From assembly GCF_035083965.1 (NCBI RefSeq), contig NC_089729.1, positions 1,771,001-1,835,000 of the forward strand: a stretch of DNA of 64,000 bases, read 5' to 3'. A program made the translations under genes and the position numbers. The DNA comes from Branchiostoma lanceolatum (taxonomy: Eukaryota; Chordata; Leptocardii; Amphioxiformes; Branchiostomatidae). The notes below the pieces were generated by a model, which saw only the letters and a program-made list of their open reading frames with translations, was not told the DNA's origin and did no database searches. How positions within the stretch are numbered: the first letter of the stretch is position 1; the number at the start of each line of letters is the position of its first letter. This document shows, in pieces, positions 14,406 through 62,755 of the stretch.

Positions 14406-14502
14406 ATGTTGCACGAACTTCATGAACGGAGAACTGTTATCACAGATGGAAGGTTGCTGCTAAAGGCGTTTGTCTTGATCGTTGTGCTGACGGTATTGAC
14501 AG
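14406..14502 (+). CDS. FR-A exon 1, signal segment
   Basis: ATG at 14406 opens 32 codons ending in a hydrophobic stretch and a perfect donor, CAG|GTAAGT. The exon ends in phase 1 and joins exon 2 (which needs two bases) to make an Asp codon. The frame is open further upstream to 14241 without another ATG, so this start is the simplest. The 4-kb intron makes the link inferential. Confidence 0.65.
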
Positions 14503-17500
14503 GTAAGTGACATTGAGCACTCGACGCTTCATGCGTGCGAACTGTTTAGAGTAGAGCAAAATGTTTACAGACGTTTACCTGATAGGATACTGAAGGTATT
14601 GCTAAATTAGAGTCGTTGAAAATAGAACAGATTGGATAAATAATTCTTGTAAGGTGAGATAATTTTGCAAGATTTTGAATTCAACACTTCCTTGTTTGCT
14701 ATAGAAAGCTATTGCAGGAGAGCCCGTAGTGTTTTTCTGTAGCTATAGCAAAACGCCATGAACAATCTCACCATCATTTAGCCTGTAAAACACAAGTAGG
14801 TTCCGTGTTAAATTCACGTGGGAATCACCCTTACATCTATTCTGTGACACCTGGGGCTTAAACAAGTGCAAACCCTAGCCAGGCGCCATCTCATTATGCT
14901 GTCGCCTACTTCAAAATTCAAAGACCTCAAGGCGTTGTATGTATGATCTTGTGTCTCTTCTGAGCTCTTTAATCCTTACACAAAACGATCCATGCCTTGC
15001 CAATGTCTGACAACTTTGATTTGCATTAGCACCGTTACTTGATATCGGCATGTCTGACGAACTGGACGCAGTGTATATGTACATACTAGGCTGCTGCCTT
15101 GACTTGAAAACTAGGTTGGCTAGGCAACTCATAGAACGTGTTATATGAACAAAAACACCTTTAGATTGTCACTGTGTTTAACACAAATAGACATCTCCCT
15201 ATGTCTTACGCCTCTTGTAAAACACCTTTGGATTTTACAAGTGTACTCCTTCAGCCATAAGACAAATGACCAGTCGCTTTATATCAGCTACTTGACCTCT
15301 TCGAAATCTAATTGTCACTTTGTCTCTAAAACAGACCTCTCCCTTTGTCTCACGCCTCTTGTGAAGCACCTTGGGATTTTACAATATACACCTTCAGACA
15401 TAAGACAAATAATTCGAAATCTAATTGTCACTTCGTCTCTAAAACAGACCTCACTCTATGTCTCACGCCTCTTGTGAAGCACCTTGGGATTTTACAATAT
15501 ACACCTTCAGACATAAGACAAATAACCAGCCACCTTTTATCGGCGACACTACCTCTTCGAAATTTTATTGTCAGTTCGTCTCTAAAACAAACATCCCTCT
15601 ATATCTCACGCCTAGGCCTCTTGTAACATAATCTCTACCAGACTAACCGCGCCGGCAATAGGGAAAATATTTGCCAGGGGAGTTTGGCCATGGCGGGTTT
15701 TATTCGCCGGCTCTCATCATTCAATTCACTCTATTTAGCCAATTTCTACTATTTCCCCAGCGATCCGCGGGGCCTGGTGGAGGCAACTTGTAAAACACCT
15801 TTAACTTTTATAAGTCCGAACTTCTCGTTATGCTGTAGACATAGACAAATAAACCCATCGTGGTATATCAGCGGCGCTACCTTTCCTAAATCTTGCGAAA
15901 TAACATTCAAATGTAGCGAAAGAAATAACCATGTACCGAAATAACTTTGTACCATGTGGCGAAACGTACTGTAGCGAAACGTACTGTAGCGGACTGACAA
16001 TGTAGCGAAACAACCTGTAACCGCCCGGTCACATGCATCGTGCGATCGACACGTAATCACTAAAGTAATAAATTCATACGATAATCGCGCGATCTCAAAC
16101 TGAGGAAATTCTTTAGATATTTCTGCTTATGTCTTCAAAACTCGATTGTCTTATTACAGAACAGCGGTGTACAGAAAGAAGGAAATGGAACGAAAAGGAT
16201 AAAAAATGGAACTACAGAAAGTGCGAAATAGAACGAAATGGACAAAAAAGGGAATTACAGGAAGTGCGAAATGGAACGAAATGGAAAAAACCCTCCAAGG
16301 CTGTCTTAGATCCCTGCCGAGGGTTGTTTCTGTCACAACCGACTTGGGAAATGTTATGGCACCAAAGTCGTACATTAGCCTACATCAGGTGTGACCCCGC
16401 CATTAATCAACTAGAAGCGCTGTATAACTGTGCGTATTCTCATTTGTCTCATATTAAAACTGTGGCTGACAAATCCTCCACGGTCTAACCTCGAGGCATT
16501 GTGCCGGCACACGCTATCGACATAGTTTTATTTTATTTTATTTTGTTTTGTTTTGTTTTGTTTCGTTTCGTTTTATTTTATTTTGTTTTGTTTTGTTTTG
16601 TCTTATTTCATTTTTATTTATTTATTTTATCTTATTTCATTTATTCTATTTTATTCTATTTTATTCTATTTTATTCTATTTTATTCTATTTTATCTTATT
16701 TTATCTTATTTTATTTTATCTAATTTTATCTTATTTCATTCTATTTCATTAGAATTGCAACAGTGCAATTATTGCTGGTGTCGTGGCCCACACATAATAT
16801 ACCCGTTTTTACACTTGGGTGGAGTGAGGAAAGTCGTGCAAAGTGCCCTTTTCTTAAGAGCACAAGATCGGTGGCGTCAGGGGATTCGAACCCGGGACCG
16901 CTGGGTTCTGGGCCGAAAACTCTGCCGTTACGCCCCACGACCCTACCGACATATGCCTGTTTACGCCTGTCACGAGGGAATACAAACTAGAACAAAGAGA
17001 CCTGTAGGTTACATCATTAAAGTCCTAATAAAGCTATAAACATATATCATTACACATACGTAGTAATATATCATTGCACATACGTTGCAATTTAATAAAA
17101 TAAATAGATACGTAGTATAAAACGGACTTTTTTGCATCACCGCGAATCTCTTTTTGATACATTTCAGTCACTGTACATCGGTTTCAATTCAGTTACAAGT
17201 TACCTGCTCACGTGGGCCTCATACGCAAATGCAAAGCACATCAGTGTGACCGCAGGAAAAAAATTGTCAAAAATTCTCAAAGTTTGTGTTGCAATAAGGC
17301 GCAGCCCAGTGATATACCCGCTTAGCTTTAGCCTATCTTACTGGACCCGCGGAACGTTGGCGGCATCGCTGCGACCGGGCGATTTGACAAAGCTCTCAAC
17401 CAATTTCATCGATGAACTTTGACTTTTTTTGTTTTATTGTCTGTTTAGTCATACTTGTATATTTTGCATGATATAACCATTTTTAAAAAGTCAAGGGTAA

Positions 17501-18249
17501 CACAAATCCAATTTAGGACGCAGCGAGGTCCCCTCTTACTGGACCCGCGGCACACTGGTGGCGTCGCTGCGGCCAATCAAATTGACAGAGTGCTCAACGA
17601 GTTTCATCGACAAAAATTGAATCTTTTTAAGCTTTGTGGGTTTTGTTGTCTTTTTAGTCATATTTGTATGTTTTGCATGATGTACCCATTATAAAAATCA
17701 TAAAGTCGAGGGTAACACAATTCCAATATTGGACGCAGCGAGGCGCGGGTCCAGTGAGATAGGGGCTTCACGCTCATAATCGACGCAATCCGCCCCCATG
17801 GGCGGTAGTTAGCGTTGATGAATCCCCGCTACTGTGCGATATGACAGCCGATACCAGCCCGGGGGGCCGACACGTGTGTTTGTTAGCTACGCCTACACCG
17901 GAAGGAAAATGGGTCAAACTATCCAGGGGGAGGACATTCGTCGCCGGGGACCGTGTTTGGGAGGCTCGTTATTCTTAATGGGTGATAAAACGGACAGGTC
18001 TTCTTCAACTGTATTGGTTGAACATGTATATTAGCTGAATCATATTTTTGCTGATCAGGATACTTTAATTCTGACGCTAATGCCTTTATTGCTTTTTTTC
18101 TAATTTGTCATTACGTATTCTTAAAGGAAACTATACGGAGATGTCTTCGTGATTTTTATTGGTTTGTCATCAACATGATTCTTAAAACTGCAAACTTATA
18201 TTTTGGGTATTTTTCTCTCTTTCCTTTGCCTATCCCTTCCTTCCTTCCT

Positions 18250-18312
<63 letters not shown>

Positions 18313-18378
18313 CTTTCTCTTTCTCTTTCTCTTTCTCCTTCCTTCCTTCCTTCCTACCTTCCTTCCTTCCTTCCTTCC

Positions 18379-18409: not shown

Positions 18410-20082
18410 TTCCTTCCTTCCTTCTTTCTTTCTTTCCTTCTTTCTTTCTTTCTTCCTTCCTTCTTTCACACCGACCGATTCCCTCCAGATGCGTCAGCAG
18501 ACCTGCTCCTGGAGGACGTTACGGATGAGACAGAGGACGCCACCCGCGGCCCGCTGCCGTACTGCAGCCTGTTCACGAACCGCGCGCCCCACCCCGAGCA
18601 CAAGCTGGTCAAGTGTTCCTGGTTCCACAACGACGCCTGCTGCTACCAGGAAGAGGTGGACAGGTGTGTACCCTGGGAGTCCAGGCACCGTAATCGGATC
18701 ACGTAATCGGATAGCGGAGTTTGGGTTTGCAACGGAGAGTGGGGTGGGGTCAGTCTTCGGGGGGCAGCGGGAGGGTGGGCCGTGAAAGCTTGGGCGCGCG
18801 TGCGGTGATCCGATTACGGTGCCTGGACTCCCAGGGTAACAGGTGTGAAGAAAAAAACGTAGACATGGATGTTTATCTGAACAATGCAGCTACAATATGC
18901 TGGTTTCCATCTAAACGACCGATAAATCCTCCCGTTCATGATCTAATAGAAATCTATGTAACATTTACTGGGATAACTTTCTAAAAGTTTTGTAAAGGCT
19001 TCTCGTTGACTATGCAAATAAGGTCCGCGTTTGCATAAATCATACTAGCCGATGATTTCATATGCAAAATATCATGAGCATGCACCCAGAACTTCTCGAC
19101 CTAATCTGTATACAAACCAACGGCACCGAAAGCATATTCTTCTCGACTATATATATTTATAACGTGGTAAAACAAATGTAAGGATGCCCGTGAATTATGT
19201 CAACATGTTGGTAAATGACTGTATAACATATGATTTTTCTTCCCACAGGATATTCCCGACAGTGGTGCCCCCTCGCGGAGCTAACCAGAACTGCACGGAC
19301 CACCTGTATTACCTGATGTGTTACATCTGCTCTCCCCGCCAACATCTCTTCTACAGCGACGAAGTCGTCACCATTTGCGAAGAGCTCTGCAACCGGTAGA
19401 AATTAATACATCCTTCGTGAAAATCGCTATGTTTTCTGACCGGCTGTTTTTTCTTTCTGAAACCCGCTCACCACCAACACACACGATTTGGAAAAGTAAA
19501 CTTTCACATCTAGTTGAACAAACGTGCTGCCATTGATCGTTTGGTTATCTTTCCTTACTGTCCTGGTGTCTGTGTATATGTCATAAAGCTTACAATAGGA
19601 GAGGTTTCTCTGATATGTCCTCAGTCCTTTCAAATCGTAGGTCTTACTATAACATGGACGTTTTTCTAATCGAGGTGATCGATCATAGAGTTATTTGACT
19701 TGGATGGTGTTTCAAGTGATGATAGACATCTCGGTAAAGTAAATTAAGTTGTGTTTCGCTTTTGGTACTTTTGTACACTATAAAATCAATATTTCTGACA
19801 GAAACTTCATTCCCTCACCCTTTCTCCAGCCTGTTCGAAGCCTGTGCGAACGCGACGCTGAAGGGTCAGCGGATCGGCGAGCAGTACTCTTCCGGGCGGG
19901 ACTACTGCGTCAGCCGGAAGTTCCGCGTGGGGCGACAGAGCAGCGGCAGCTGTTACTCCCACAACTTCTCCGTCGTGGAGGACATAGACCCGCCGAGCTC
20001 CCACCAAGATGGCGTCGGGGGTTCCGTGTCGCTTGTTGTCATGACCTTGATAATTACAAGGACGTTTGCTACGGCGTCATGA
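14406..20082 (+). CDS. FR-A: folate-receptor-like cysteine-rich surface protein (4 exons)
   Basis: Exons are 14406-14502, 18489-18663, 19249-19395 and 19830-20082, totalling 672 nt and 223 residues. All junctions are GT-AG and in phase (1, 2, 2). Residues 1-32 form a hydrophobic signal or signal-anchor segment (KAFVLIVVLTVLT). An acidic linker follows, then from Cys58 a cysteine-rich domain with a CSW...CC start, a C-x2-C pair (CYIC), a C-x3-C pair (CEELC) and YSSGRDYC. This pattern is that of the folate-receptor/HHIP-type FR-like fold. The tail (GGSVSLVVMTLII) is moderately hydrophobic and could direct GPI attachment, but this is uncertain. The homologue FR-B at 51585-56869 matches through the whole domain. 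Ligand and function are unknown, and folate binding is not implied. The first exon is assigned by phase and position, without transcript evidence. Confidence 0.8.
14600..15140. other. FR-A intron 1, 5' part, no ordered feature
   Basis: AT-rich intron sequence without a credible exon or strong repeat. Confidence 0.4.
15145..15640. repeat. Tandem repeat in FR-A intron 1, unit about 113-145 bp, about four copies
   Basis: The block CTTGTGAAGCACCTTGGGAT, then TTTTACAATATACACCTTC, recurs near 15224 (diverged), 15369 and 15482. TCTCTAAAACAGACCTC and ATGTCTCACGCCTCTTGT lie between copies. A degenerate extra copy starts near 15788. The plus-strand open frames here are produced by the repeat. Confidence 0.85.
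15641..16518. other. FR-A intron 1, middle part
   Basis: A short TAGCGAAACGTACTG repeat occurs at 15955-16010, and a GGAACGAAATGGA repeat at about 16185-16290. No credible exon was found. Confidence 0.45.
16520..16757. repeat. TTTTA/TTTTG pentanucleotide array
   Basis: About 240 bp of TTTTA, TTTTG, TTCTA and TCTTA pentamers abut the SINE at 16759-16940. On the SINE's own strand the array reads as a TAAAA-type tail, so it probably grew from the SINE's 3' end. Confidence 0.9.
16759..16940 (-). mobile_element. tRNA-derived SINE with pentanucleotide tail
   Basis: On the minus strand this has CGTGGGGCGTAACGGCAGAG, close to an A-box head, followed by a B-box (GGTTCGAATCCCC) and the same body as the copy at 11296. 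It is the most complete copy of the family in the window. It sits in FR-A intron 1 in antisense orientation. Confidence 0.85.
17331..17766. mobile_element. Two head-to-tail copies of a CCCCTCTCACTGG MITE
   Basis: Copy 1 is about 17331-17530 and copy 2 about 17531-17766. Both read TTACTGGACCCGCGG, then GGCGTCGCTGCG, a TCAACGAATTTCATCGA-like block, TTTTGCATGAT, AAGTCAAGGGTAACACAA and GGACGCAGCGA. Copy 2 ends in GGGTCCAGTGAGATAGGGGC, the inverse of its start. The best-preserved relative is at 39544-39783. Confidence 0.85.
17767..18235. other. FR-A intron 1, 3' part
   Basis: No exon or ordered repeat was recognised before the CTTT tract. Confidence 0.4.
18236..18472. repeat. CTTT/CCTT microsatellite abutting a splice acceptor
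   Basis: About 237 bp of almost uninterrupted pyrimidines on the sense strand (CTTT, CTTTCT and CCTT blocks) end 16 bp before the FR-A exon 2 acceptor at 18488. The poly-Phe/Leu/Ser frames read through it are artefacts, although one is in frame with exon 2. Confidence 0.95.
18489..18663 (+). CDS. FR-A exon 2, acidic linker and start of cysteine-rich domain
   Basis: The acceptor is CCCTCCAG|AT and the donor GACAG|GTGTGT. The exon encodes an acidic segment, then CSLFTNRAP and the CSWFHNDACC motif that opens the folate-receptor-like domain. The homologous B segment is split by an intron at a position where A has none. The donor is duplicated by the MITE at 18669-18838. Confidence 0.88.
18669..18838. 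mobile_element. 170-bp MITE inserted at the FR-A exon 2 splice donor
   Basis: Perfect inverted termini of about 34 bp start TACCCTGGGAGTCCAGGCAC and end with the reverse complement. It is flanked by an exact 9-bp duplication, ACAGGTGTG, at 18660-18668 and 18839-18847. The duplicated target contains the exon end and GT donor, so a second donor now lies 179 bp downstream. A 9-bp duplication suits a Mutator-like or related element, but the superfamily is not settled. Confidence 0.92.
19249..19395 (+). CDS. FR-A exon 3, core of cysteine-rich domain
   Basis: The acceptor is TTCTTCCCACAG|G and the donor CCG|GTAGAA (the donor is weaker than average). The exon encodes NCTDHLYYLMCYICSP and the VVTICEELCN helix region, both well matched in FR-B (SFLYCYVCDP; TVCETFCDR). 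It ends in phase 2. Confidence 0.85.
19830..20082 (+). CDS. FR-A exon 4, end of domain and C-terminal tail
   Basis: The acceptor is CTTTCTCCAG|C. The exon encodes LFEACANATLKG, YSSGRDYCVSRKFRVG and the last cysteine, then a Ser-rich spacer and a hydrophobic end (SLVVMTLII) before TGA. The last 85 nt or so also form the first unit of the tandem array that continues to about 21310. Confidence 0.88.
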
Positions 20083-21310
20083 CAAATCTTGTAGATATGT
20101 CACTCTCCGGCGTTCTACTTTTGTTCGTTAAACACCAGTGAACTTTGACCTCTCCATCAAGATGGTGCCGGGGATTTCGAGTCGCTTGTTTTCATGACCT
20201 TGATAATAATTGCAAGGACGTTTATTACGGCAATATGACAAAACTAATACAAACTTGTAAATGTTGTAAATATGTTGCTGTCTACTTTTGTCATATACCA
20301 GTGACATTTGACCTCTCCTCCAACATGGCGGGGTTGCGTCTGTCTCGCCTGTGGTCATGACATTGATAATTGCAAGGAAGTTTATTACGGCATCATGAAG
20401 AAGTGTTAAACTTGTATATGTTGTAGATACGTCACTCTTGTTCTACTTTGATTTGTCATACATCAGTAACTTTGACCTATTCGCCAACATGGCGCTTGTG
20501 TTGTCGACCTTGACAATCATAATGACGATTATTGCGGCATCATGACAAAATTGTATATATTGCAAATACGGCTTCGTTTTGCTATTGCTCGTCATACACC
20601 AGAGACCTTTATTTGACCTCTCCGCCAACATGATGCTAGTGGCCATGACCTTGACAATCACAATAACGTTCATTACGCCATCATGAAAAAGACATTGCAC
20701 TTGTAAATTTAAATACGTCACTCTCGCTCTGCTTTTGTTCATCACACATCAGTGAAGACCTTTGACCTTTCGACTAACATGATAGCGCGACCTTTGTCTC
20801 GCTAGTGGTCATGACCTTGAAAATCACAGACGTTTATTACGGTGCCATGACAGAAACTGATACAATTGTTAATAGTGTGAATATGTCGCTTTTGTTCTAA
20901 TTTTGTTCGTCCCACATCAATGAAGATCTCTGACCTCTCAACCAGCATGGATTGTATTCACGATATTGACAATCGCAAGGACGTTTGTTATACCATAATT
21001 ACACGATTGTTTATTCACTCTCTGGACATATGCTTAAGAATAAAGAAGTCTGAAATGTCTAACGTTAGAATAAAAATGTCCGCTAAGGCGCGATTTGGAA
21101 CCTATTACGTCATTCGTATCCCATTACTTGGTATCTTGCGCGCATGCGCGTGACGATCCAACTGTGACAATGTGTAAATACAAAGTTGTCATCTTCTTCA
21201 AGTTTACGCCCGTCAGAAATCATTGAAGATCTTTAACTTTCCTAACAATATGGCGTCAGAGGTTCAAGTTCATGTCTTTTGTCGTTCCGAATTGACAATC
21301 CCAATTACTG
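19998..21310. repeat. Tandem array starting inside FR-A coding sequence, unit about 150 bp, about eight units
   Basis: The block ACCAAGATGGCGTC, then a TCGCTTGTTGTCATGACCTT block, GACGTTTGCTACGGC and CATGACAAA, starts in the last exon at about 19998. Diverged copies start near 20150, 20312, 20478, 20616, 20767, 20934 and 21236, each joined by a CACCAGTGAACTTTGACCTC-like spacer. Only the first unit is coding, so later units form the 3' UTR or flank. Confidence 0.85.
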
Positions 21311-21614
21311 TCATTACTGTCAGTAGAATGATACCTGCTGCAGATAATTTACATATTTTACGTTCGACCTACTCCTATGCTGGTTAGGATATGATATTAT
21401 AATAATAATGGTTCAGAAATTAACCGTGCAATATATATAGCAACGGTTACTTTTCTAGTACTTAATTGGTGCAGGGTTAACAATCACATAATGCACATGT
21501 ACATATGGGCAACAGATACACATTTGCTCCACACTTGCACTTTGTGGAACTGTCGTAAGGGTCTGGACGCTGCATTTCGGCGCCACCAGGTAGCTTCAAT
21601 ACTACCTTATCCAT
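21311..21614. other. Spacer between FR-A array and LRR gene
   Basis: AT-rich sequence; no gene recognised. Confidence 0.4.
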
Positions 21615-22073: not shown

Positions 22074-25000
22074 GTAAGAACTAGCAAACATGGACAGCCA
22101 TTTGCTCCAACACCTTTATGTTCCGAAATCCTATGTTCCAACACCCTTAGATTTATGTTCCGAAGTCCTGAGTTTCGACACCCCTACGACGTTCCTATAA
22201 TCACACGTTCATATATGTTAGAGTAGTACGGCCAGGATAAGAACTGTGTCGAAACATAGGGGTGTCACCATCGCAATCAAAACATGTGAAGTGATCGGAT
22301 GAATCATTAGTTTAAGCTTTCTCCACGCAATCGCTGCTTGTCCGCTGTCCTCCACAACTTCTGGGGAGGCCACAGCAGGTACATTCTATAGAATATATCC
22401 ACTACACGTAGACTCAAGATTCTAAGAATGGTAAGAGCTCGCGCAAAGTAAAGATATGAAGTGCCTATGAATAAGCAGCTAAAGGTTGCACCACGCACTT
22501 GCTAATTGTCTACTACCTTCCACAGCTTTTACTGATCTTGACCAACGTGCTCTTGCCCTAACAACCCAGTAATGCTTTCGAGAACAGCCCTCAAAACCAA
22601 TATGTTTAGCCTGTATTTGCAAAACTCTTCTAACTGTCCATAGGTATAGCTCAAGCATTCTAGGTTTTGTTTACTTGTACATAATAGCACGGGAATAAAA
22701 GAATGAGCGCTCGAGCATATGCACACACGCGGGTAGGAATGTGTATATTGGAGATAAGAAAACACAATGTCTACACAACCGATAAGTGTAAATTGAAATA
22801 AACTCAAAGTAAGCCACACTAAGCAGAAAGGGGGCCATAAATCATATATTTCACAAGTTTGAATATTTGATAAGCATGTAATAGTACTAGTGCTAGGGAG
22901 TAAATCAGTATCTTTTTTAAGCTTTAAACTTGAATGTAAACAAGAGCAACGGTTGTAACTGCCACTTGTAACGTAGCAACAGAAACATACACATTTCATA
23001 CACACTTCCACGAATAGTCGCTTGGTGGCGCCTCACATAACACGGTCACTATGATGCAGCTACGGTATTGATATTGATTTTGACCCTGAATTGATTCCAA
23101 TAACAAATAATTACCTTCGCCAAGAGAGTTTTCCGGTCTATGTGTTTATGTCTTTGCCTGCCTGTCTGTGTGTCTGTGAACAGCATAACTAGATAGGTTG
23201 TACAATGTTATTTGAATGGAAATCTATGGTATCTATGCTGGGAGGTACCGGTGTTTTGACAACTTGTGTTATTTGCGTAGAGAAAAAAGCAGGTAATACG
23301 ATTTATACAAATTGGGGTCTTATTTTTATAATCAACACAAAACCTTCATAATGTGTCAGCTGTAAAGGTGAACGTCAGTTGGTGAAGGTATGAGGTCGCG
23401 GAACCACGATATCTTTCAACCGCAGTGGAGGCCTAATAGACTAATCACTCCTCACTCCTTCCACGACTTTTCAAGGTGACCAGTTTAAGACGGTGGACTG
23501 TGACGCCCGAAACCTGACCAGCATCCCCGGCCCGTTGCCTAGCGACGCCATCAACATTTTCCTTGGAAACAACAACATCCGGGAAATACCAACAGGTATG
23601 AAATAATAGAATTTGGAGCCATTCAAATGTCATAACAAATGTTGATGTTAAGATGTGCAGCATATTTTCAAAATGTTGATATTGCTCCTATTTCGCTGAA
23701 GCTGGTGACATTACCAAGGTCGTGATTTTCGAAAAATGTTACGATCTTTCATCCAAACATCTGCTTGAAGAGTGGAACTGCGCTGAACGGAAGTAATAGT
23801 GGTTTGGGAATCCAATTGAAGGGGGAATGGCTAGTTCTGTTGGGAATGGGGAGAGGGGAGACGAATAAGCCGTTTCAAAGCCAAAGTCAAAGGCACCTAG
23901 CCTGGTTATTCGCTATATACTGCTAGGGGTCATAAACTTTGACATATAACCCACAATACATTACATCGCACATGCGCACTGCAAACAGTGAACTGACGTA
24001 TTTCCTTGAAACTCTAAGGCATGTGGGTCAAAATTTGTGTCCTTGTGTTAGATTAATATTTCGAATTTGATCATGTTTTTGATCATCAGAAGTGAGTTTC
24101 AGACTACACTTAAATGGATTTCAATGTTCTTCTTATCTACATAGACGCCTTTAACAGCCTTTCCTCCGTGGAGAACCTTTACCTGAACAACAACCCGCTG
24201 ACCAGTCTGCCGCCGGACGCCTTCCGAGGCCTGACCGCGCTGCAGAAGCTGGACCTGGGGGAGTGTCAGATCGGCACCATAGAGGAGAACGCCTTCCGGG
24301 GTCTCACCGAGCTCACGGATCTGGTGTTAGACACTAACCAGGTAAGGGTCGGGTCGGCACCATACAGGACAACGCCTTCCGGGGTCTCACCGAGCTCACG
24401 GATCTGGTGTTAGACACTAACCAGGTAAGGGTCGGGTCGGCACCATACAGGACAACGCCTTCCGGGGTCTCACCGAGCTCACGGATCTGGTGTTAGACAC
24501 TAACCAGGTAAGTGTCAGATCGGCACCATAGAGGAGAACGCCTTCCGGGGTCTCACCGAGCTCACGGATCTGGTGTTAGACACTAACCAGGTAAGTGTCA
24601 GATCGGCACCATAGAGGAGAACGCCTTCCGGGGTCTCACCGAACTTACGGATCTGGTGTTGGACACTAACCAGGTAAGTGTCAGATCGGCACCATAGAGG
24701 ACAACGCCTTCCGGGGTCTCACCGAGCTCACGGATCTGGTGTTAGACACTAACCAGGTAAGTGTCAGATCGGCACCATAGAGGACAACGCCTTCCGGGGT
24801 CTCACCGAGCTCACGGATCTGGTGTTGGACACTAACCAGGTAAGTGTCAGATCGGCACCATAGAGGAGAACGCCTTCCGGGGTCTCACCGAACTTACGGA
24901 TCTGGTGTTGGACACTAACCAGGTAAGTGTCAGATCGGCACCATAGAGGACAACGCCTTCCGGGGTCTCACCGAGCTCACGGATCTGGTGTTAGACACTA

Positions 25001-26287
25001 ACCAGGTAAGGGGCGGGAGCGTTAGACACTAAAGCCCCTATCTCACTAGACCCACGGCGGCCGAGCAATTTGACAGCGCGCTCAACACATTCCATCGATA
25101 AAAAACTAATCGTTTTACGCTTTGTGTGTTTTGTTGTCGTTTTGGTTCTACTTGTGCGTTTTGCATGATAATCCAATTATAAAGTCAAGGGTAACACAAT
25201 TTCAATTTTAGAGATATTTCAAAGTGTATCAACCAGGCCATTGAAAATAATTAAAAAACTGTCGAAAAGCTATTTCTAACATAGTCATCTTTTCATAGCC
25301 CTCTAGGCACCACTGAACAGGCTAGGGCATCAGCTAACATTCTGTCTCTCCCGGTTTTCTGATCTTCTTGAACTGAGCGCTTGCTACTAGGCGTTGTAAA
25401 CAATTAAGTCAGATCTAGAATGATGCTGTTTGTTCATTTATTTTCCATTACAGATCAAAAGTGTGTCCTTGTCGACATTCCAAGGCCTGGCTAGCCTCAA
25501 CACCCTGAACATGAGAATGAACCAGCTGACGTCGCTTCCGGCGGATGTGTTTGAGTCGACCCTTAACCTCCAGAGCCTGTACCTGTCCGGCAACCAATGG
25601 GACTGCACCGACTGTTCCCTCGCCTGGCTTCCCAGGTACGTGGATGGTGATTCCTTCAGTCATCCCTTGGTTCATTCTTTCATTCATTCATTCATTCATT
25701 TATTAACTGTAAACTTTAATACAAAAGATTTTATCATCGATTCTTTTTTAATAGAAAAGCTTACCTTGAGTTAAAGTATCTTGTCTGTTTGAAGTACCTT
25801 ATGTTTCAAAATACAAATTTATAAAGTGATAGCACGATCGAGCTTGTCAAACCTCAGCATGTAAAAGAACCCAGCACACTTATCGAGACGAGTGGGACAG
25901 GGAGTCCCGATATGCTTTGCAAAAACAAGCAAGCCGCAGCGAAGCCGGATTGCACATTGAATATCAATTAAATATCACTTGAATATTGAATATCCCAAAA
26001 ATGTTGCTCAAGTTCCTTGATTAAGGTTGTTGGCCACATTTCATTCATATCATGTCATGACGGAGGTTTCTGATGCAGTGTCCTTTTTTACCGCCAGGTG
26101 GCTCTCGCTGACGGGAGTTTCTCTGGACGCCTCCAAGTGCGCTACCCCGTCTCTGTCCCAGGGCAGTCTGGTGCGGAACGTCCTGGTGACAGAGTGCCCT
26201 GGTCTCGTGAGTTCGTCAGTCACCATGGCAACGCCCTTCACAACCGCCACCATGACCTTTCTCGCTGTGTTTTTCTTCTTCCTTTGA
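21974..26287 (+). CDS. LRR: GPI-type leucine-rich-repeat surface protein, VLR-like (5 exons)
   Basis: Exons are 21974-22073, 23476-23595, 24145-24341, 25454-25635 and 26098-26287, totalling 789 nt and 262 residues. Phases run 1, 1, 0, 2 with GT-AG at every junction. Residues 1-21 are a signal peptide. An LRRNT follows (CPSACTC, then a fourth Cys in VDCDA), then about five LRRs with LxxLxLxxNxL spacing ([55 protein letters not shown]), and an LRRCT ([16 protein letters not shown] and two more Cys). It ends in a Ser/Thr-rich spacer and a hydrophobic end ([10 protein letters not shown]), as expected for GPI attachment. From family knowledge, this layout matches lamprey variable lymphocyte receptors and the VLR-like LRR proteins reported in amphioxus, so an immune or adhesion role is plausible. 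That role is inference. Confidence 0.9.
22074..23475. other. LRR intron 1
   Basis: 1.4 kb with no recognised exon. The minus-strand 160-codon frame at 22529-23011 lacks recognisable domains and is more likely chance in AT-rich sequence. Confidence 0.5.
23476..23595 (+). CDS. LRR exon 2, end of LRRNT and first repeat
   Basis: The acceptor is TTTTCAAG|G and the donor CAACAG|GTATG, phase 1 at both ends. It encodes [20 protein letters not shown] and [15 protein letters not shown], the usual LRRNT-to-LRR1 transition. Confidence 0.88.
24145..24341 (+). CDS. LRR exon 3, central repeats
   Basis: The acceptor is CTACATAG|AC and the donor ACCAG|GTAAGG, phase 0 at the end. It encodes two full LRRs and the start of a third. 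Joining the donor at 24341 to 25454 restores a perfect repeat ([17 protein letters not shown]), so this first donor must be the productive one among the nine copies. Confidence 0.9.
24342..25005. repeat. Eight 83-bp tandem copies of the exon 3 end, each with a splice donor
   Basis: Units start at 24342 and every 83 bp to 24923, ending at 25005. Each copies the last 83 nt of exon 3 and ends ACTAACCAG followed by GTAAG. Eighty-three is not a codon multiple, and the in-frame read-through stops within unit 1. Variants include EEN versus EDN codons plus silent GAGCTC/GAACTT and TTA/TTG changes. Units from 24591 repeat at 24840, giving a higher-order period of 249 bp. Confidence 0.97.
25029..25220. 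mobile_element. CCCCTCTCACTGG MITE, one end lost
   Basis: It reads TAAAGCCCCTATCTCACTAG, then CTCAACACATTCCATCGATA, TTTTGCATGATAATCCAATT and AAGTCAAGGGTAACACAA, collinear with copies at 17331 and 39544. The right inverted end is missing. It lies in LRR intron 3, just after the donor array. Confidence 0.8.
25454..25635 (+). CDS. LRR exon 4, last repeats and start of LRRCT
   Basis: The acceptor is TTCCATTACAG|A and the donor CCCAG|GTACG, phase 2. It encodes two more LRRs and [15 protein letters not shown], the LRRCT signature. Confidence 0.9.
26098..26287 (+). CDS. LRR exon 5, end of LRRCT and GPI-type tail
   Basis: The acceptor is TTTTTTACCGCCAG|G. It encodes [18 protein letters not shown], a second Cys in TECPG, a Ser/Thr spacer and [10 protein letters not shown] before TGA. 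No charged residue follows the hydrophobic run, which favours GPI anchoring over a transmembrane helix. Confidence 0.88.
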
Positions 26288-40940: not shown

Positions 40941-40950
40941 TATTACTTAT

Positions 40951-43154: not shown

Positions 43155-43212
<58 letters not shown>

Positions 43213-43586
43213 GTGTGACAATCGCAGTGTGCACAATACGGTGTTGGTCTGAAAGATTGGCACTGTCGTAAAGGCGATTTTCGTAAGCAGTGAAGTCTGC
43301 CATATCTGATTGCTATGTTTATAATATGATTTCGTACTTTTGAGCTGCTAGCGTTATCAGCTGAACCAACGTTACCATACATCTACCAAGAAAATAGTAT
43401 CACCGCGGACATTGCTTCTTTTGTTATAATCCCTAAAAGCACAGTGGTTTCCAATTAAATATATTCATCCACTCCTACAGTCGCGAGGTAGCTTTGCACT
43501 CCGTATCACATCGTAAACATTATACGGTCTGACTACCTTCCACCCGTGAAATTTGACGTGTTTTAATCTAACGAGCCGGCAGAGTT
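42708..43586. other. Spacer with a GA microsatellite
   Basis: A pure GA run lies at about 43157-43210, preceded by a short GT run. No gene was recognised. Confidence 0.6.
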
Positions 43587-49000: not shown

Positions 49001-49556
49001 CAACGCTGTCTCAAAAACTCTGTCTCTGCCTACTACTCGCACCACTAGGTTAAGTAACAGCCCAGTTCCATCACTTCTAAGGATACTTAATGAAACAAAA
49101 GGACACTGCTGCCTAAGCAGTCTTATGTTATAATTAATGGATTTAGTGTTGTACATACGAAATAGTATTTTAAACTGACAATGTTGTCAAAGTCGATTTT
49201 GTGACAATAAGTACATGAGTGCAATAGTGCAATAGTTTTGTGATTAAATGTGATTCGTACGATGTATGTCACAATAGACGCAATTCAGTCTAGAAATGTA
49301 GTACTGCAAGTTCTGTTGATTAATAAAACCATTTTGATTGATTGATTGACTGTTTGACTGTTTCACAGTCCTAAACGACGTGCTGCTCTATGTAACAAGG
49401 ATTCAGCACAGTTATTACAATAGAGGGCTGCAGGGCGATATCAGACTGGTTCTGTCTACGTCTGGTTTGACCGCGAAATGAACTCGTGAAGGGAGGCAGA
49501 CGTTACAAATCAACGCCAGTACAAGTTCTATAATACTAAGCCCTCGGACCGAAACG
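49001..49556. other. Spacer with possible LINE tail
   Basis: At 49315-49355 AATAAAACCATTTTGATTGA continues into a TTGA microsatellite, the form of a + strand LINE 3' end. At 49557 there is a lone CGTCTGCTTGGAAA MITE end. Confidence 0.45.
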
Positions 49557-49590
49557 TCTGCTTGGAAAATAGACATGCACAGTGAGAAGG

Positions 49591-50106
49591 TTAACAGCAC
49601 ACTGAAGTAGCCGTTTAGCACCCGATTCCCTATTGGTTACAGAGTAAGGTAGCAGGGAGAAGGTTAACAGCACACTGAAGTAGCCGTTTGGCACCCGATT
49701 CCCTATTGGTTACAGAGTTAGGCAGCAGGGAGAAGGTTAACAGCACACTGAAGTGGCCGTTTGGCACCCAATCCCCTATTGGTTACAGAGTTAGGCAGCA
49801 GGAAGAAGGTTAACAGCACACTGAAGTAGCCGTTTGGCACCCAATCCCCTATTGGTTACAGAGTTAGGCAGCAGGGAGAAGGTTAACAGCACACTGAAGT
49901 AGCCGTTTGGCACCCAATCCCCTATTGGTTACAGAGTTAGGCAGCAGGGAGAAGGTTAACAGCACACTGAAGTAGCCGTTTGGCACCCAATCCCCTATTG
50001 GTTACAGAGTTAGGCAGCAGGGAGAAGGTTAACAGCACACTGAAGTAGCCGTTTGGCACCCAATCCCCTATTGGTTACAGAGTTAGGCAGCAGGGAGAAG
50101 GTTAAC
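49591..50106. repeat. 73-bp satellite, seven full copies
   Basis: TTAACAGCACACTGAAGTAG starts at 49591 and every 73 bp to 50029, with a final TTAAC at 50102. Copies are over 95 percent alike by eye, including a CCCCTATTGGTTACAGAG block with an inverted CCAAT box. Confidence 0.98.
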
Positions 50107-50290: not shown

Positions 50291-50709
50291 GCCTCCATTC
50301 CACTCGACAGCGATCGGACTTGTGTAACCATTGATTTCACAATTGGAATATCATACAAAATGTAAAAGTACTGTAAAGGCAGAAATGTTCGCGAAGGTTT
50401 TATATTCGCGGTTTTCGCGGCGACCGTTACACCACGAAGTTAAAGCCACCACAAACATTTTTGTCCAATACTGTAGCAGCGTGTGACTTTAGCGCTGCCG
50501 CAAACTTAAAACCACTGCAAACGTCCCATTTTCGCCTTAGCGCGAAATAAAAACCACGCGAACTTAAATGCATTTACAGTATGACTGAAAAGACAACACA
50601 ACACGCAAAGCGTAAAACGTTTCATTTTTTATACATGAAATTTAGCACTATGTTCAATCCTAGGTCCCTGGGAGCGCGCGGCGAGAGCGCCGTCCTAGTG
50701 GAATGGGCG
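50291..50709. mobile_element. MITE of the 40951 family split by a CTGTAAA MITE
   Basis: The left end GCCTCCATTCCACTCGACAG and the right end GCGCCGTCCTAGTGGAATGG are inverted. The interior TACAAAATGTAAAAGTA and TGACTGAAAAGACAACA are the two halves of the core seen whole in inverted form at 41075-41100. The inner element occupies 50371-50579. Confidence 0.85.
50371..50579. mobile_element. 209-bp CTGTAAA MITE with TA duplication
   Basis: It runs from CTGTAAAGGCAGAAATG to GCATTTACAG, flanked by TA at 50369-50370 and 50580-50581. The host sequence AAAAGTATGAC, seen uninterrupted in related elements, shows TA as the target. The TA target suggests Tc1/mariner or a similar group. Confidence 0.88.
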
Positions 50710-51584: not shown

Positions 51585-52088
51585 ATGACGGGACCGCTGT
51601 ACGATTGTACAGAATCTAAAACGACATACATGCTAACGGTGTGGAGGTTCGCGTTTACAGTTGGAATTGCGTGTACGGTGTTTGGTTTGGTCTGCATAAA
51701 CGCTACCGACGGGGTAGAGATCCGGGAACTGACCGACAAGGAATTTTTTACGGTCCACGAAAAATCAAATCGCAGAGAAAACACCGCACAGGAGTTTGTC
51801 GCAACTTCCAGGAAATCGGACGGCCAGATAGAAACAATTAAGGAAAATTCTGAAGACAGGACGATGCACGAAAGTTCTCTGTTTAAGGACGAACCGATAC
51901 AGAGGTGTAAGAGAAGCACTGATGATAGCGGGGCTAAAGGACTGGACACAGCTGTCGATGACAACAAGAAGGATGTAATGTCGACACCGGCACGTTCACT
52001 AGTCACCAGTGAGGCTACACCTAAGGAAAGCCTCACGGAGGAAGCGCATTACTGTCCGTTCTTCAATAACAGAGCGCCTTCCGCACAG
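51585..52088 (+). CDS. FR-B exon 1, signal peptide and charged linker
   Basis: 168 codons ending CACAG|GTAAGG in phase 0. It includes the first domain cysteine (HYCPFFNNRAP). Linker composition is rich in Glu, Asp, Lys, Ser and Thr with no predicted fold by eye. Confidence 0.85.
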
Positions 52089-55000
52089 GTAAGGCTTTGG
52101 TTCGTAGTACAACCTTTTCTAACGTAACATCGGCATGTTAGACCTTACGTTTGACTATCTTCTTTACAAAAACTCCTTTTGTATTAGTTAAGTGTTGCGC
52201 TACCGTCTGTTGCGTTTAAAGAGAGGGGAAATATAGAAGATGTTAAATGGAAAGGTTTAGTGTTAGAGATTTTAAGTTCAAATTGATTATTATCATCATT
52301 TGTATGCCTGTATGTTTTCACTCTGTGCAATATGTATATCTTTTGCTACGACTAGACGCATGGCCGAAGGGTACCAAAATAAACGTGTAAATGGACGCTA
52401 CGGTCCTTCGGATCTCAGTTTTTGTGACACGTTACCACAGACCTTAACTACACCACAGACCTTAACTTTTGGAATCACGCACCCCCTTCTTTATCCGGAC
52501 CTGCGAAACTGCATGTAGGTGTAGTGCCAGGCGAGGGACAAAGGCGTCGGGTTTCTTTACCTGCGATTATTTGAGCATGCAGGACGTTCAAGGTCTTAAT
52601 CTTACCCTCCCCCTTCCTCAGCCAAACCTGCGGAACTGCAGCTGGGAACGTAACCTGACCATTTAACGTCCGATTTATTCAAAACGTAAATAGGTCATGT
52701 TACGTTACCAGGCCCGCAGCAAAAGTTAGAGGTTTGGTATTAGTGATTATGTACGACTTTCATGTTGTTGTTGTTTTCTTCACCGAAGCCGAACCTGCGG
52801 AACTGCAGCTGGTACCAGCCCCGGAGCTGCTGCCTCCAGCGGGAGATCGACATCATCTTCCGCGCCACCTACCCGCTCTCGGCCGCCTCGGACGAGTGTC
52901 GCAAGCAGCTCAGCTTCCTCTACTGCTACGTGTGCGACCCAGCACAGGTACGGGTTCTCTCGTCTAGCACTGTCTTCTCTCCTTCTGTACATACTGCTTC
53001 TGTAATCTAGTACTTTCTTTTCACCTTTTGCACATCTACTCTTGTCTCTTCTGTCCTTTTACGTGTGCGACCCCACACAGGTACTGGTTCTGTTATCTAA
53101 TAATGTCCCCTTTCCTTCTGTACATACAGCTTCTGTCATCTAGGACTCTCTTCTATTCTTCTGTACTTTACAGCTTCTGTCATCTATCCTAACTCCTCTC
53201 TTCTCCTGTACTTTTACTACCCCACACAGATACTGGTACTGGTTATGTTATCTAATAATGTCCCCTTTCCTTCTGTACATACTGGTTCTGTCATCTAGTA
53301 CTCTCTTTTCTCCTTCTGTACTTTTTTCGTGTGTAATCTCACATAGGTACTGGTTCTGTCATCTACTGATACATTGTATCCTCTTTCCTCCATCTGTACA
53401 TACTGTTCGTATAATTACGTACTCTCTTCTCTTCTTCTGTACTTAACATCGTCCGTCTGGTGCTCTCTTATCATTTCCACATTCATTTATTCATTCATTC
53501 CAGATTCTGTTATCTTGTTCTCTCTTCTCCTCTTCTGTACGTTTCCTTGGGCGAACCGGATTCGGCTCAGCTCATGTCATCGAGTACCCTATTTTTTCCG
53601 TCTTTCAATCCTTCATTTGCTGTAATACCCTTAGTAGATATTGTTAGTTCCGCTAAGCGCTAGTATGGTTTATAACTGGAACTTCCCTTTTTAATTTTCC
53701 TTTTTCTTCCTCTTATCAGGTTCACATGGTCACACCTGTCATCTCTTTCTTTTTTTGCATCAGAAACATTCAACAGGATTCGTTACTCGTAACAAAGGTT
53801 TATCAAACGTAGATGGATGTTTCAATGCATATCACAGTCATAAATCGTGCCCATATCTTCATCTTGATTTATTTCCAGCCTGTATCTATATATGAACGTC
53901 TTCGCCATCTTTCAATTTCACCGTGTGACGCTCTAGATCTGTCTCTCCACTCCGAGTAGTTTCGCCTCCGGCGTTTCCGCTCTCTTTATATTCCGTGTGC
54001 TGCACATCGCTCAGTGCCTATCAGCCACTTTTCAACCATACATGTTCCCATGCAATGTCGAGTACTTGATCAGATAGTTCATATTCATATGTCATTCATA
54101 CAGAACATGACATGCAAGATCCCTGCCAGCATCGTACAAAACTATTCTATATATAGCCAGACACGTGTTCTGGTTTGTATCGCTTTACCATGCTTTCAAA
54201 AGTTTGCCATCTATCATCTGGGTTTTTAACATTTGACAGTTTCGTGATGATCACTCACAATATACGACACATGCTCTGTAATTTGTTTAAAAGCATCATC
54301 TATGTCGACAGTAAGGTCCTGGTTACATTCGTCCTACAGCAAATCTACGACAATAAATTTGGGGCATTCTAGGGACAGCCGTGGCTGCATGTGTCGTACA
54401 ATTGTCGGTCTTCTGACGGAAATTGTCGCGTGCATGTTGATGGTCTGTTCTGTCATAGGTTCCAAATCTTACGACAAAAAAAGAAGTTGTACGACGATTG
54501 TGACCAATGTATCATATGTTTGAATTGTTGAACCGATTTCCCTCAAACCTAATCTCCAAGCAGAATGTAGAAACGCAAAAGCGTAACGTTTCTAAAACTC
54601 CCAGTGAGGTTCGAGGAGCGGTCCACTGATACTGTTTTGGCCACTTTATACGCACAGTCTTGGCCCACTGATACTGTATTAGCCGACATAACGACTCTAC
54701 TAGCGGAAGAATTGAGCTCGGAGATTATTTCAAACCTACGACGACCAGTTCTCTATACTGTTATAGCGACGTAATGAAAATTGTACGAGTATGACTTCAG
54801 CTGAAGCATCTGAAGACGACGTCTGATGAGCGTTATTACGTTTTCTTTAATTGAAACATCAAAAATAACACATAGTGATGCCGCACTCAAGCAACACAAG
54901 CGTATTTATCAAGCGTTTACGTTTTCCTGTATTGAAAAATAAGAAAAACAACACATAGTGATGCCGCACTAAAGCAAAACACGCTTACTTAATCGTATTC

Positions 55001-56869
55001 GTTATAACGCTCCTGTCAAAGTTTCACCCATCTGTCCCCTTTTTTCATCACGATCCGCTTTCATCTTCCTGTTACGCCCTCGGCATTTCTTCCCGACATA
55101 TCACCGCTAACCTGCGCGACCTCGGCTCTCCGCCTGGGTGGCCCGAGGGCACGCATGGTTCCATTCATGTTGTTCATGAAAGCACCGAGACAGGCCGCGA
55201 TACGGCGTGAGTTAAGTAGACAATGGCGGCTTGTGGAACATAGTGGAAACATGTTGAACTTGTGATATACGAGTCCTAACAGCTGTCATAAATTTTCAAA
55301 CAGGCCACAACGACAATGTCGGACAAGAACATGACACGGCACCATTTTCACGATGTTAGCTAACTTTTTACCATCACTAGTATGCAAATTTCTGAAAAAC
55401 ACCATTGATTTCTACCCAAGCTCTAGCCTATAGAAATTCGACTTTTCTAAAAATATATAATTACTATAGGTGACGTCATCATGGCGTCATAACATTTTGC
55501 ATAGATTACCGTCTTGCAATAAGAAACTTTCTCACAAAAATTCAAAGTCCATAGTTAACTGCAAAATGTATTTTTGAAGCCTTAACTGTTGGCAGAGCAT
55601 GGTATATAGAATGGGTGGACTGAAAATACTGCAACAAGACGAAATGAAAGAGTATTTACATGAAAAGATGACCTATTTCCCTTCAGAAGTGTTGGGAGTG
55701 CGCTTGGGCGACACATTGTTCATAAAAGCTATAACTATGATTGCACTGTAACGGATACTGGACATAACTGACGGTGCGGTAACATAGGATTTGTGCCGAA
55801 GTCAGAACGTTACGAATAGTTATGAACAACCATGCCAAGCAGGTACAAAGAAATCTCACGCATCCTCTTTGTTCTATCAGGAACACAATGCCACCATATT
55901 CGTTGAAACAAACACGGTTATGAAAATTTGCAAGGTGACCTTCAACTACTTTTTCCCGCCCGCTGCCTGCAGACGATAAGCGGCACATATACGTCATCGC
56001 TCTATGAGGCACTCTGCTGAGGCAAGCAGGTTTGGCGCACGATAAAACACCGGACCAGTCTGGCGCCCTACTAACTCCGCTACGGGTCCGATAAAAGCAG
56101 CCTCAACACTACGGCCATTTCTCTTCCAAAAAAGTGTCTGATTATTGCACATTCCATGTTTCTAGTGGGCTTAAGGTGTTTAGATCTATGTCTGGTCTGG
56201 AAAGGCAGTTTTGGCATTAGATATAAGGTACGGAATGTTGGCTGAATTCACAGTTAACATTTCAAACGTGTTTAAATTATTTAAGATAGATGTATAACGT
56301 AAATCAGCTAACTCTCTTACAAATACTTTTTTTCTACAGCTTCATGTATGTATCTGTTCAGTCAGTAGCGCCGACTAGCGGATGTAGTTGGTGTTACATG
56401 ACTCGGCTTATAGATTATGCTTTTCATTTGCAAACTACTTAGTAATGCCCGAAAGCTAACCGCAAGGGAACGCACGGATAAGATAATGTAGAAAAAAAAG
56501 TATAAAATGTCTAGTATATAGATCTATCTGATGATGCTATGTACATTAATACTTGATGATTATTTTCAATGTTATCGTTTTCAGAATACGTTTTACAGCT
56601 ACGAGACTCTGACGGTGTGCGAGACGTTTTGCGACAGGATCTTCGCGGCATGCGGGTCCGCCTTGTGGAAGGGCTCGTCCATGAAGTCCGTGTACTCCTC
56701 CGGGAGGGATTTCTGTTTGAGAAGGAGCTTCCGGGTGGGGAGCGTGTCAAAAGGAAGATGTTTTCACCACGAAGAGGAGGTGGTCGTTTCCGGTATTGGA
56801 CAAAGGACTCGACCTTCAACAAGCGTTATCATATTAGCACTTGGCTTGAAACTCGGTAGAATTCGGTAG
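51585..56869 (+). CDS. FR-B: folate-receptor-like cysteine-rich protein with long linker (3 exons)
   Basis: Exons are 51585-52088, 52789-52947 and 56585-56869, totalling 948 nt and 315 residues. All introns are phase 0 and GT-AG. Residues 16-45 hold a signal peptide (MLTVWRFAFTVGIACTVFGL), so Met1 or Met16 may be the start. About 110 charged, Ser/Thr-rich residues follow with a basic RCKRS site that could be cut by a furin-type protease. From Cys157 the cysteine-rich domain runs CPFFNNRAP, CSWYQPRSCC, FLYCYVCDP, TVCETFCDR, YSSGRDFCLRRSFRVG and a last Cys in GRCFHH, matching FR-A throughout. The tail STSVIILALGLKLG is weakly hydrophobic. Ligand and function are unknown. Confidence 0.85.
52490..52660. 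repeat. Two decoy copies of the FR-B exon 2 acceptor edge in intron 1
   Basis: CCAAACCTGCGGAACTGCAG at 52622 and a diverged CCGGACCTGCGAAACTGCAT at 52495 copy the start of exon 2 (52789). The 52622 copy sits behind CTCCCCCTTCCTCAG, a stronger-looking acceptor than the real TTCACCGAAG. Its frame hits a stop after 14 codons, so use of it would truncate the protein. Confidence 0.9.
52789..52947 (+). CDS. FR-B exon 2, first half of cysteine-rich domain
   Basis: 53 codons, phase 0 at both ends. It encodes PNLRNCSWYQPRSCC and QLSFLYCYVCDPAQ. The acceptor is CACCGAAG (an unusual A before AG) and the donor CACAG|GTACGG. The frame and the FR-A match decide the start. Confidence 0.9.
52927..53560. repeat. 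Tandem array copying the FR-B exon 2 donor edge, unit about 130 bp
   Basis: ACGTGTGCGACCCCACACAG followed by GTACTGG at 53061-53087 copies the exon end at 52928-52947. Diverged copies (CCCCACACAGATACTGG near 53220; ATCTCACATAGGTACTGG near 53336) continue the series. TCTGTCATCTAGTACTCTCT and CCTTCTGTACATACT lie between them. At least one copy keeps a good donor. Confidence 0.88.
53561..56584. other. FR-B intron 2, 3' part
   Basis: A CTCCAAGCAG MITE end lies near 54561. A direct repeat with CACATAGTGATGCCGCACT occurs at about 54874 and 54954. The 109-codon minus frame at 55683-56012 has no domain. No further exon was recognised. Confidence 0.5.
56585..56869 (+). CDS. FR-B exon 3, second half of cysteine-rich domain and tail
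   Basis: The acceptor is ATCGTTTTCAG|A. It encodes TFYSYETLTVCETFCDRIFA, a GSALWKG segment, SSGRDFCLRRSFRVG and the last domain Cys, then a tail ending at TAG. FR-A has an intron inside the segment that is continuous here. Confidence 0.88.
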   Translation, partial: NTFYSYETLTVCETFCDRIFAACGSALWKGSSMKSVYSSGRDFCLRRSFRVGSVSKGRCFHHEEEVVVSGIGQRTRPSTSVIILALGLKLGRIR

Positions 56870-59459: not shown

Positions 59460-59490
59460 CGTTTTTAGAACTCACCGCAAACATTGACAT

Positions 59491-59750: not shown

Positions 59751-59759
59751 ACCTTGACA

Positions 59760-61245: not shown

Positions 61246-62337
61246 ATGGAAAATATTGCATTTCTCGCTAAAAACGTGAACACTACGAGCACCCATGTCA
61301 ACACGTCGGGCAGGGGCATATGGAACCGGGGTCCGCACGAATACGTGGCGCTCTACATCGACTTCGCGAGCATGTTCGGCATCCTGGCAAACCTCCTCAA
61401 TAGCCTCGCCATCATGACCACGAAGAAGCTGCAGAACTCCTCGAACGCCTTCATCCTGAACCTGAGTTTCCTGGACACCTTCGTGGCCTGCCTGGGCCTG
61501 GTGGTGAGGCTACAGGTGTTCTTCCCGAAGTATGTTCCGGGAAACGCCTGCGAGGCCGTCGGGGCGCTCACCTGCATCGCGCTGGCCGCGTCCGCCGTCA
61601 ACCTGGCCGCGATTGCCGTGAACAGGTACTACCTGGTCACCAGAGGACCGGTACAGTACAAGAAGGTGTTCTCTAAGAGAAGGACGTTTGTGTGCATCCT
61701 GCTCGTGTGGGTGACAGGGGTCCTCTTCAACCTCCCTCCTATCCTCGGATTCGGGAAGTACGGCTATAACGTGAAGACGCATATGTGCACGTTCGTGTAT
61801 AACGACAGGAGGATGTACTTTCACTTGTTCCTTGGGACTATGTTTGGTTTCGGCGGAGTGATCCTCACCGTCGGCATCTGCTACCTGAAGATCTACCTTG
61901 TTCTGCGGCGGCTGCGGAGGCTTAGACCGGGAGTGAGGCTTCCCCGCCACGCCTGGACAGACACCATCGCCGTCCGCCTGCACCAGATCGAACGCCAGGA
62001 CGCAAAACTGGTGACGTCGCTGTTCTTCGTGTGCTGCGGGTTCTGCGTGTGCTGGCTCCCGCTTTTGGTGACGATCCTCGTGGACAGTAACTTCAACGCG
62101 CCGCCGGCCGCCTACCTGCCCGGTGTTATGTTGTTGTTCACTCACCCGGTGATCAACCCGCTTATTTACCTTTGGGTCAACAGAACATACCGCCAGGCTT
62201 ACAGGAGGATACTTTGCTGCGACTTTTCTCGAAAAAGTAGGTGTTGTCTCGGACGAGGAATAAACACTATCCAGCAACTAACGCAACGCGACGCTGGAGT
62301 CCCGTGTTTGAGAAGAGGCACAGCTCAAAAACGTTAA
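61246..62337 (+). CDS. Rhodopsin-class (class A) GPCR, NRY type
   Basis: A single exon of 363 residues with seven hydrophobic helices. The N-terminus has NTT and NTS glycosylation sites. TM2 has LNLSFLD (Asp77). Cys102 and Cys181 form the usual disulphide. TM3 ends NRY (126-128) where most class A receptors have DRY. TM6 has CWLP (269-272) and TM7 NPLIY (304-308). No lysine lies at the retinal position before NPLIY, so it is not an opsin. Arg-rich loop 3 (RRLRRLRPGVR) and CC at 324-325 suit G-protein coupling and palmitoylation. NRY is shared with melatonin, GPR84 and Tre1/Moody-type receptors, the likeliest relatives. The ligand is unknown. The last 52 codons or so are the first unit of a three-copy tandem repeat. 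Confidence 0.93.
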   Translation: MENIAFLAKNVNTTSTHVNTSGRGIWNRGPHEYVALYIDFASMFGILANLLNSLAIMTTKKLQNSSNAFILNLSFLDTFVACLGLVVRLQVFFPKYVPGNACEAVGALTCIALAASAVNLAAIAVNRYYLVTRGPVQYKKVFSKRRTFVCILLVWVTGVLFNLPPILGFGKYGYNVKTHMCTFVYNDRRMYFHLFLGTMFGFGGVILTVGICYLKIYLVLRRLRRLRPGVRLPRHAWTDTIAVRLHQIERQDAKLVTSLFFVCCGFCVCWLPLLVTILVDSNFNAPPAAYLPGVMLLFTHPVINPLIYLWVNRTYRQAYRRILCCDFSRKSRCCLGRGINTIQQLTQRDAGVPCLRRGTAQKR

Positions 62338-62755
62338 AGAACCCACCACATTGATATAACAGCAGAACACACGGCCAGGATTACGAGAGAATATTCTGTT
62401 GCAACTTTCCCGACGAAGTAGGTGTTGTCTCTGACGATTAACAACTTTTTATACTGCTCTTTTAAACTAACGATACGCGACGCAGGAGGTCCGGTGTTTG
62501 AGTAGTCACACCTCAAAAACGTTAAAGAACCCACCACACCTATCAACAACAACAGAACATCCGGCCAGGATTGCAAGGGGGTACTCTGTTGCAACTTTCC
62601 CGAAAAAGTACTTTTCCCGAAAAAGTAGGTGTTGTCTCTGACAAACTTTCTACATGGCTCTTCCAAACAACATCGAGCGACTGACGTTACACGTCGCTGG
62701 GGGTCCCGTGTTTGAGTAGAGAAGCCTCTCAAGCAAGTTAAAGAACCCACCACTA
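62181..62755. repeat. Three-copy tandem repeat of the GPCR C-terminal coding end
   Basis: CAGAACATACCGCCAGG starts unit 1 in TM7/C-tail coding sequence (62181). Units 2 and 3 start at 62363 and 62553. All contain GAAAAAGTAGGTGTTGTCTC or a variant, a CCCGTGTTTGAG block and GTTAAAGAACCCACCAC. Unit 3 carries an extra 16-bp internal duplication. Units 2 and 3 lie after the stop codon and have their own stops. Confidence 0.93.

Follow-up and report, generated by a model that had tools for sequence, protein, structure and literature searches.

Tandem arrays that begin in coding exons and run across their 3′ edges in four predicted genes of one amphioxus window

We analyzed a 64,000-nucleotide stretch of Branchiostoma lanceolatum DNA (NC_089729.1, positions 1,771,001 to 1,835,000 of the forward strand; hereafter the window), in which four predicted genes, i.e., an LRR gene, a GPCR gene and two genes with weak support as folate receptors (FR-A and FR-B), each carry a tandem array across one coding edge. 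The ten coding exons are predicted models, drawn by hand from open reading frames, splice motifs and Pfam matches. The genes and arrays, in positions of the window, are:

14406-14504, 18489-18663, 19249-19395 and 19830-20082, plus strand: predicted exons of FR-A
19830-20082, plus strand: last coding exon of FR-A, an open reading frame with a hydrophobic tail, stop at 20080-20082, no Pfam match
19995-21340, plus strand: FR-A array, about eight diverged copies of about 150 bp, beginning in the coding tail and passing the stop
24145-24341 and 25454-25635, plus strand: predicted exons of LRR, a gene incomplete within the window
24145-24341, plus strand: LRR exon that seeds the array from its 3′ end (LRR_8 1.5e-16, splice motifs)
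24262-25010, plus strand: LRR array, nine copies of 83 bp, the first being the exon end, with the donor at 24342
25454-25635, plus strand: next LRR exon (LRR_8 5e-10)
51585-52088, 52789-52947 and 56585-56869, plus strand: predicted exons of FR-B
52620-52645, plus strand: duplicate (25/26) of the acceptor edge of FR-B exon 2, lying in the intron before it
52789-52947, plus strand: FR-B exon 2 (Folate_rec 4.5e-6, under the gathering score)
52916-53612, plus strand: FR-B 3′-edge array, diverged, crossing the donor at 52948
61246-62337, plus strand: predicted coding region of GPCR (7tm_1 2e-38)
62178-62753, plus strand: GPCR array, three copies, beginning at the helix 8 codons and passing the stop at 62335-62337

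Self-alignment of the whole window, carried out blind to genes, called 15 tandem arrays that make up 14.9% of its length, against 0, 0 and 0 arrays in three windows shuffled within 200-base blocks. Four of the 15 lie across a coding edge, with one such array in each gene; the edges are splice donors in LRR and FR-B exon 2 and stop codons in FR-A and GPCR. The remaining 11, the ordinary minisatellites of the window, have unit sizes and a range of identity like those of the edge arrays but, unlike them, touch no modelled exon. An earlier note on this DNA had reported arrays at coding edges in all four genes; these are real, and our self-alignment coordinates agree with those it gave. TRF alone would mislead on these arrays, since the LRR array is the only one of its ten rows with a period of at least 20 to cross an exon edge, versus the four found by self-alignment; a TRF row at 61582-61623 lies within the GPCR coding region.

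We assessed the placement of the arrays by sliding the exon set round the window against them, with all P values being nominal and post hoc, as they come from a single window picked for showing the pattern. Because 15% of the window lies in arrays, about 3 of the 20 exon edges are expected there anyway, and 4 were found (expected 2.98, P = 0.36). The narrower counts are nominally significant: 4 of 10 exons have exactly one edge in an array (expected 1.15, P = 0.024), all 4 genes are touched (expected 1.69, P = 0.029), and 4 of 15 arrays start in an exon (expected 0.72, P = 0.004), with 0 of 15 ending in one (expected 0.72). Placing the arrays independently at random gave P = 0.0054 for starts and P = 0.013 for all four genes, and across 32 parameter settings P ranged from 0.0016 to 0.0156 for starts, from 0.016 to 0.043 for genes and from 0.20 to 0.42 for edges; in the loosest two of the 32, there was also one array ending in an exon, and five edges lay in arrays. 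The earlier claim that four of four genes is hard to ascribe to chance is therefore weaker than it was put, given the 11 arrays away from exons and an edge overlap near chance, and survives only in these narrower counts. Arrays are common everywhere in the window; the unusual part is that the genic arrays begin in exons and run outward.

The LRR array spans 24262-25010 by TRF (96% matches, 0% indels) and 24217-25010 by self-alignment, with the exon part of the final copy stopping at 25005. Each 83-bp unit consists of a 72-nt LRR module and 11 nt, and all nine units encode an intact 24-residue LRR. This follows from the shared LRR register (NQ|I) at which the two LRR exons break: a duplication that extends 72 nt back into the exon takes in a complete LRR. 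Of the eight linkers, six are GTAAGTGTCAG, which starts with GT and ends with AG, and those ahead of units 2 and 3 are GTAAGGGTCGG; AG stands directly before six of the eight extra units. An 11-nt GT...AG linker is far too short for splicing alone. The donor signal is kept in every copy, with all nine modules running into CAG|GTAAGG or CAG|GTAAGT, and GTAAGT is present in six units, the native donor not being among them. One copy spliced in as a 72-nt exon would keep the frame, use of any later donor would lead to a stop 23 codons beyond the edge, and the copies lack the pyrimidine tract present at the real acceptor (25454). Selection on the extra copies was not detected, with three of the six variable sites being synonymous (P = 0.16) and the absence of stops expected (0.87). 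At the array junction intron GTAAG is joined to exon TGTCAG, with AG shared, and units 5-6 equal units 8-9, a three-unit repeat that fits unequal exchange and hints at such exchange in the past. A dispersed element family found on both strands (17336-17768, 25020-25212, 39543-39793, 40937-41192 and 50578-50706; listed pairs 65-87% alike) has one copy, that at 25020-25212, starting where the LRR array ends.

The other three arrays are diverged. In FR-A, about eight copies of roughly 140-160 bp run from about 19995 across the stop (self-BLAST 65-69%), traced by BLAST and self-alignment to 21014, with a degraded eighth copy aligned at about 21212-21340. Copies 1-5 keep an open tail frame and a stop at a shared position, copy 7 stops one codon earlier, and the frame is broken in copies 6 and 8. 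Divergence is similar before and after the stop (133/514 versus 85/296 aligned cells). Differences between copies are spread evenly over the codon positions (0.231/0.271/0.274), giving no signal of selection, and we therefore rejected the extra copies as alternative tails. At the FR-A exon 2 splice site there is also an inverted repeat, a hairpin or an element like a miniature inverted-repeat transposable element (18660-18846; arms 18660-18702 and 18805-18846, 93%), whose left arm starts in the final bases of the exon at the donor.

The GPCR copies are spaced 181-216 bp apart (self-BLAST 68-71%). Copy 1 encodes helix 8 (NRTYRQAYRRILCC), alignable to solved receptors, and copies 2 and 3 are frame-shifted with early stops, so that the GPCR exon is the likely source of the repeat; the aligned coding part shows 17-21% differences and no third-position excess. 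Just downstream of this array lies an inverted-repeat block (62974-63128) with a 32-bp tandem array (TRF 63025-63114).

In the FR-B 3′ array, copies follow from 52916 at spacings of 133, 155 and about 111 (self-BLAST 60-67%), with the exon end shared in decaying form by copies 2-4 and barely by copy 5, and with AGGTACT kept, in the alignment, in copies 2 and 4 and not in copies 3 and 5. The 5′ edge of this exon (52490-52660), which had also been described as a repeat starting in coding sequence and running outward, is no contiguous array; the description stands for the FR-B 3′ edge and for LRR, FR-A and GPCR. What the 5′ side does hold is the 26-nt copy at 52620-52645, i.e., AG plus the first 24 exon bases, with a local score of 24 versus a maximum of 15 in 500 shuffles, and a weaker acceptor-edge copy at about 52495 whose score of 15 merely equals that maximum. 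A 73-bp unit repeated 7.2 times at 97% identity (49548-50106; TRF 49580-50106) lies upstream of FR-B exon 1, at a distance of about 1.5 kb.

Nine of the ten exons, all except FR-A exon 1, were run against Pfam, which strongly supports GPCR and LRR at the values listed above. Folate_rec matches three exons, all under the gathering score (4.5e-6, 0.0013 and 0.0049), FR-A exons 3 and 4 have no Pfam match, and FR-B exon 1 has only a weak match to DUF3837 (0.071). Further coding exons were sought with Pfam in three translated frames of the plus strand at 1-14.4 kb and 26-51 kb (the third frame of the latter reaching 49.5 kb) and of the minus strand at 1-14.4 kb, and none scored above the cut-off; the scan did not extend to the minus strand past 14.4 kb or, save for the control frame and the nine exons, to 14.4-26 and 51.5-64 kb. 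Its one weak match was DUF3915 (22.5 bits versus a cut-off of 26.9), beside a GA microsatellite at 43157-43213, and the positive control, one frame of 19.0-34.0 kb, recovered the LRR exon. A regular-expression hunt in six frames found no LRR exons beyond the known two, and Rfam and tRNA scans gave 0 matches each; the modelled set may nonetheless be incomplete, with exons missed. The largest repeat-rich block of the window (463-2885), with nested, diverged direct copies (58-82%) and a 113-codon open reading frame at 1811-2152, has no Pfam match in the three plus frames.

Duplications of this kind are already known from amphioxus as “mirages”, and those at Adh3 were reportedly described by Canestro et al. 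in 2002. The earlier note knew of no named mechanism, and on this point it was mistaken in that the phenomenon has a name, used for several amphioxus genes in the relevant passages of two papers (PMC3087553, PMC3902484), the first of which calls the genomic mechanism unclear. In those passages Ebner et al. (2010; PMC3087553) describe mirages as minisatellite-like duplications of exon/intron boundaries, find them at both boundaries in the globins BflGb6 and BflGb9, and cite them at Adh3 and two other loci. The units measure 10-160 bp, reverse transcription PCR suggests normal splicing, copy number differs between haplotypes, somatic instability is cited for Adh3, and intron gain from mirages is proposed; a supplement legend records that one mirage was mis-assembled in the draft genome. 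In PGBD5, 60-bp and 108-bp mirage arrays over two exons are described, with troponin C cited (PMC3902484).

The LRR and FR-B exon 2 arrays resemble mirages in that the unit spans an exon/intron boundary and splice signals are kept in many copies, with the LRR unit differing in carrying a whole 24-residue module. In contrast, the FR-A and GPCR arrays span stop codons, not splice sites, and lie in presumed 3′ untranslated region (UTR), so that they work alike without being strict members. Tandem duplication is presented in a review as a real route to intron gain (the AGGT model; PMC3443670), and duplicated splice-like motifs create potential introns and exons there as here, except that the segment duplicated here includes an edge that already existed and a new intron is not shown. 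Among the papers listed by our literature search, with most subscription papers outside its coverage, we found no genome-wide mirage survey and no stop-codon-spanning mirage; the stop-codon-spanning arrays and the LRR array with whole modules are possibly new.

We consider it probable that the edge arrays are mirage-type minisatellites, produced by frequent local tandem duplication with selection acting as a filter. Such short duplications (about 80-190 bp here) would arise often and widely in the genome, probably through replication slippage or unequal exchange, and 11 of 15 arrays lying away from modelled exons indicates that duplication is not confined to exon margins. A duplication from inside an exon past its 3′ edge, donor or stop, would rebuild the original exon and edge intact as copy one, with the additional copy falling in the intron or 3′ UTR, and would therefore be close to neutral; since this applies to donors and stops alike, it would explain both edge types seen here. 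Duplications confined to an exon, or spanning an acceptor edge so that decoy acceptors precede the real one, would more often be harmful and lost, and survivors may grow by unequal exchange (LRR, young) and then decay (FR-A, FR-B and GPCR, older). If the four unit lengths are placed over the coding exons without any filter, the probability of all four falling at 3′ edges is 0.0066. The LRR, GPCR and FR-B units contain conserved coding sequence, with those of LRR and FR-B lying inside Pfam matches, and the codon-position comparison shows no coding constraint in the extra copies of FR-A and GPCR. A filter against internal and engulfing duplications would thus cover most of the pattern, with an additional disadvantage at acceptor edges as a further presumed part. 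The earlier note had offered either a local duplication process or tolerated, mostly dead edges; the two combined are our best explanation, with no need for a process aimed at margins, and “mostly dead” suits FR-A, FR-B and GPCR but not the nine intact-frame LRR units.

Several observations weigh against this explanation. With internal duplications alone taken out, a 5′ edge is as likely as a 3′ edge and the 4:0 outcome has a probability of 0.0625, which does not establish a 3′ preference; acceptor edges are also among the published mirages (PMC3087553, in the passages cited). The FR-B decoy acceptor at 52620-52645 persists even though its pyrimidine tract is cleaner than that of the real acceptor and splicing to it would meet a stop after 14 codons. 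A real mutational bias could also lie behind the excess of array starts in exons, and, as the FR-A exon end matches no Pfam domain, the repeat may have supplied the tail of that gene.

A mutational process that duplicates edges preferentially, through slippage between AG/GT-like motifs or damage tied to transcription or splicing, would account for that excess, for the touching of all four genes and for the AG shared at the LRR junction, but a shared 2-nt AG is often expected by chance, stop codons, which have no splice motif, form two of the four edges, and with most arrays off modelled exons and total edge overlap near chance, we regard such a process as unlikely. That the extra edges serve as alternative exons or ends, above all the LRR array as optional in-frame exons, is suggested by its nine intact units, by the AG before six of the eight extra ones, by the donor signal after each and by the frame being kept when one copy is included. 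This is very unlikely in our judgment, as the LRR copies lack a real acceptor's pyrimidine tract and show synonymous sites and an absence of stops in line with expectation, the FR-A and GPCR copies show no codon-position bias, and the mirages described in the passages of PMC3087553 left splicing undisturbed. Exonisation, in which a pre-existing repeat supplied the exon end, would be most pertinent to FR-A, whose tail belongs to no Pfam family and whose copies 1-5 share its frame and stop position; in GPCR, LRR and FR-B it is conserved domain sequence that is repeated, and we hold exonisation to be highly improbable. Assembly artefact has a precedent in the mis-assembled mirage (PMC3087553, supplement legend) and no support from the window itself, and we give it almost no credence, as the FR-A, FR-B and GPCR arrays, three of the four, are diverged (self-BLAST 60-71%), which mis-assembly does not produce.

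With these arrays, a single window adds several examples of an amphioxus phenomenon that has been little studied; they suggest that such arrays also form at stop codons, and the simple filter model makes a testable prediction, i.e., that arrays start within exons and extend outward. It is quite unlikely, to our mind, that the LRR array serves as a nursery of ready-made exons, with eight extra phase-0, 72-nt, one-LRR modules that have good donors and, in six cases, AG before them. If it were, splicing in one of the six AG-preceded copies would add one LRR in frame, and individuals could differ in receptor length; so could cells, should the array have the somatic instability cited for Adh3 (PMC3087553). 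The LRR array would be a clean natural test of whether mirages yield new exons and new protein repeats.

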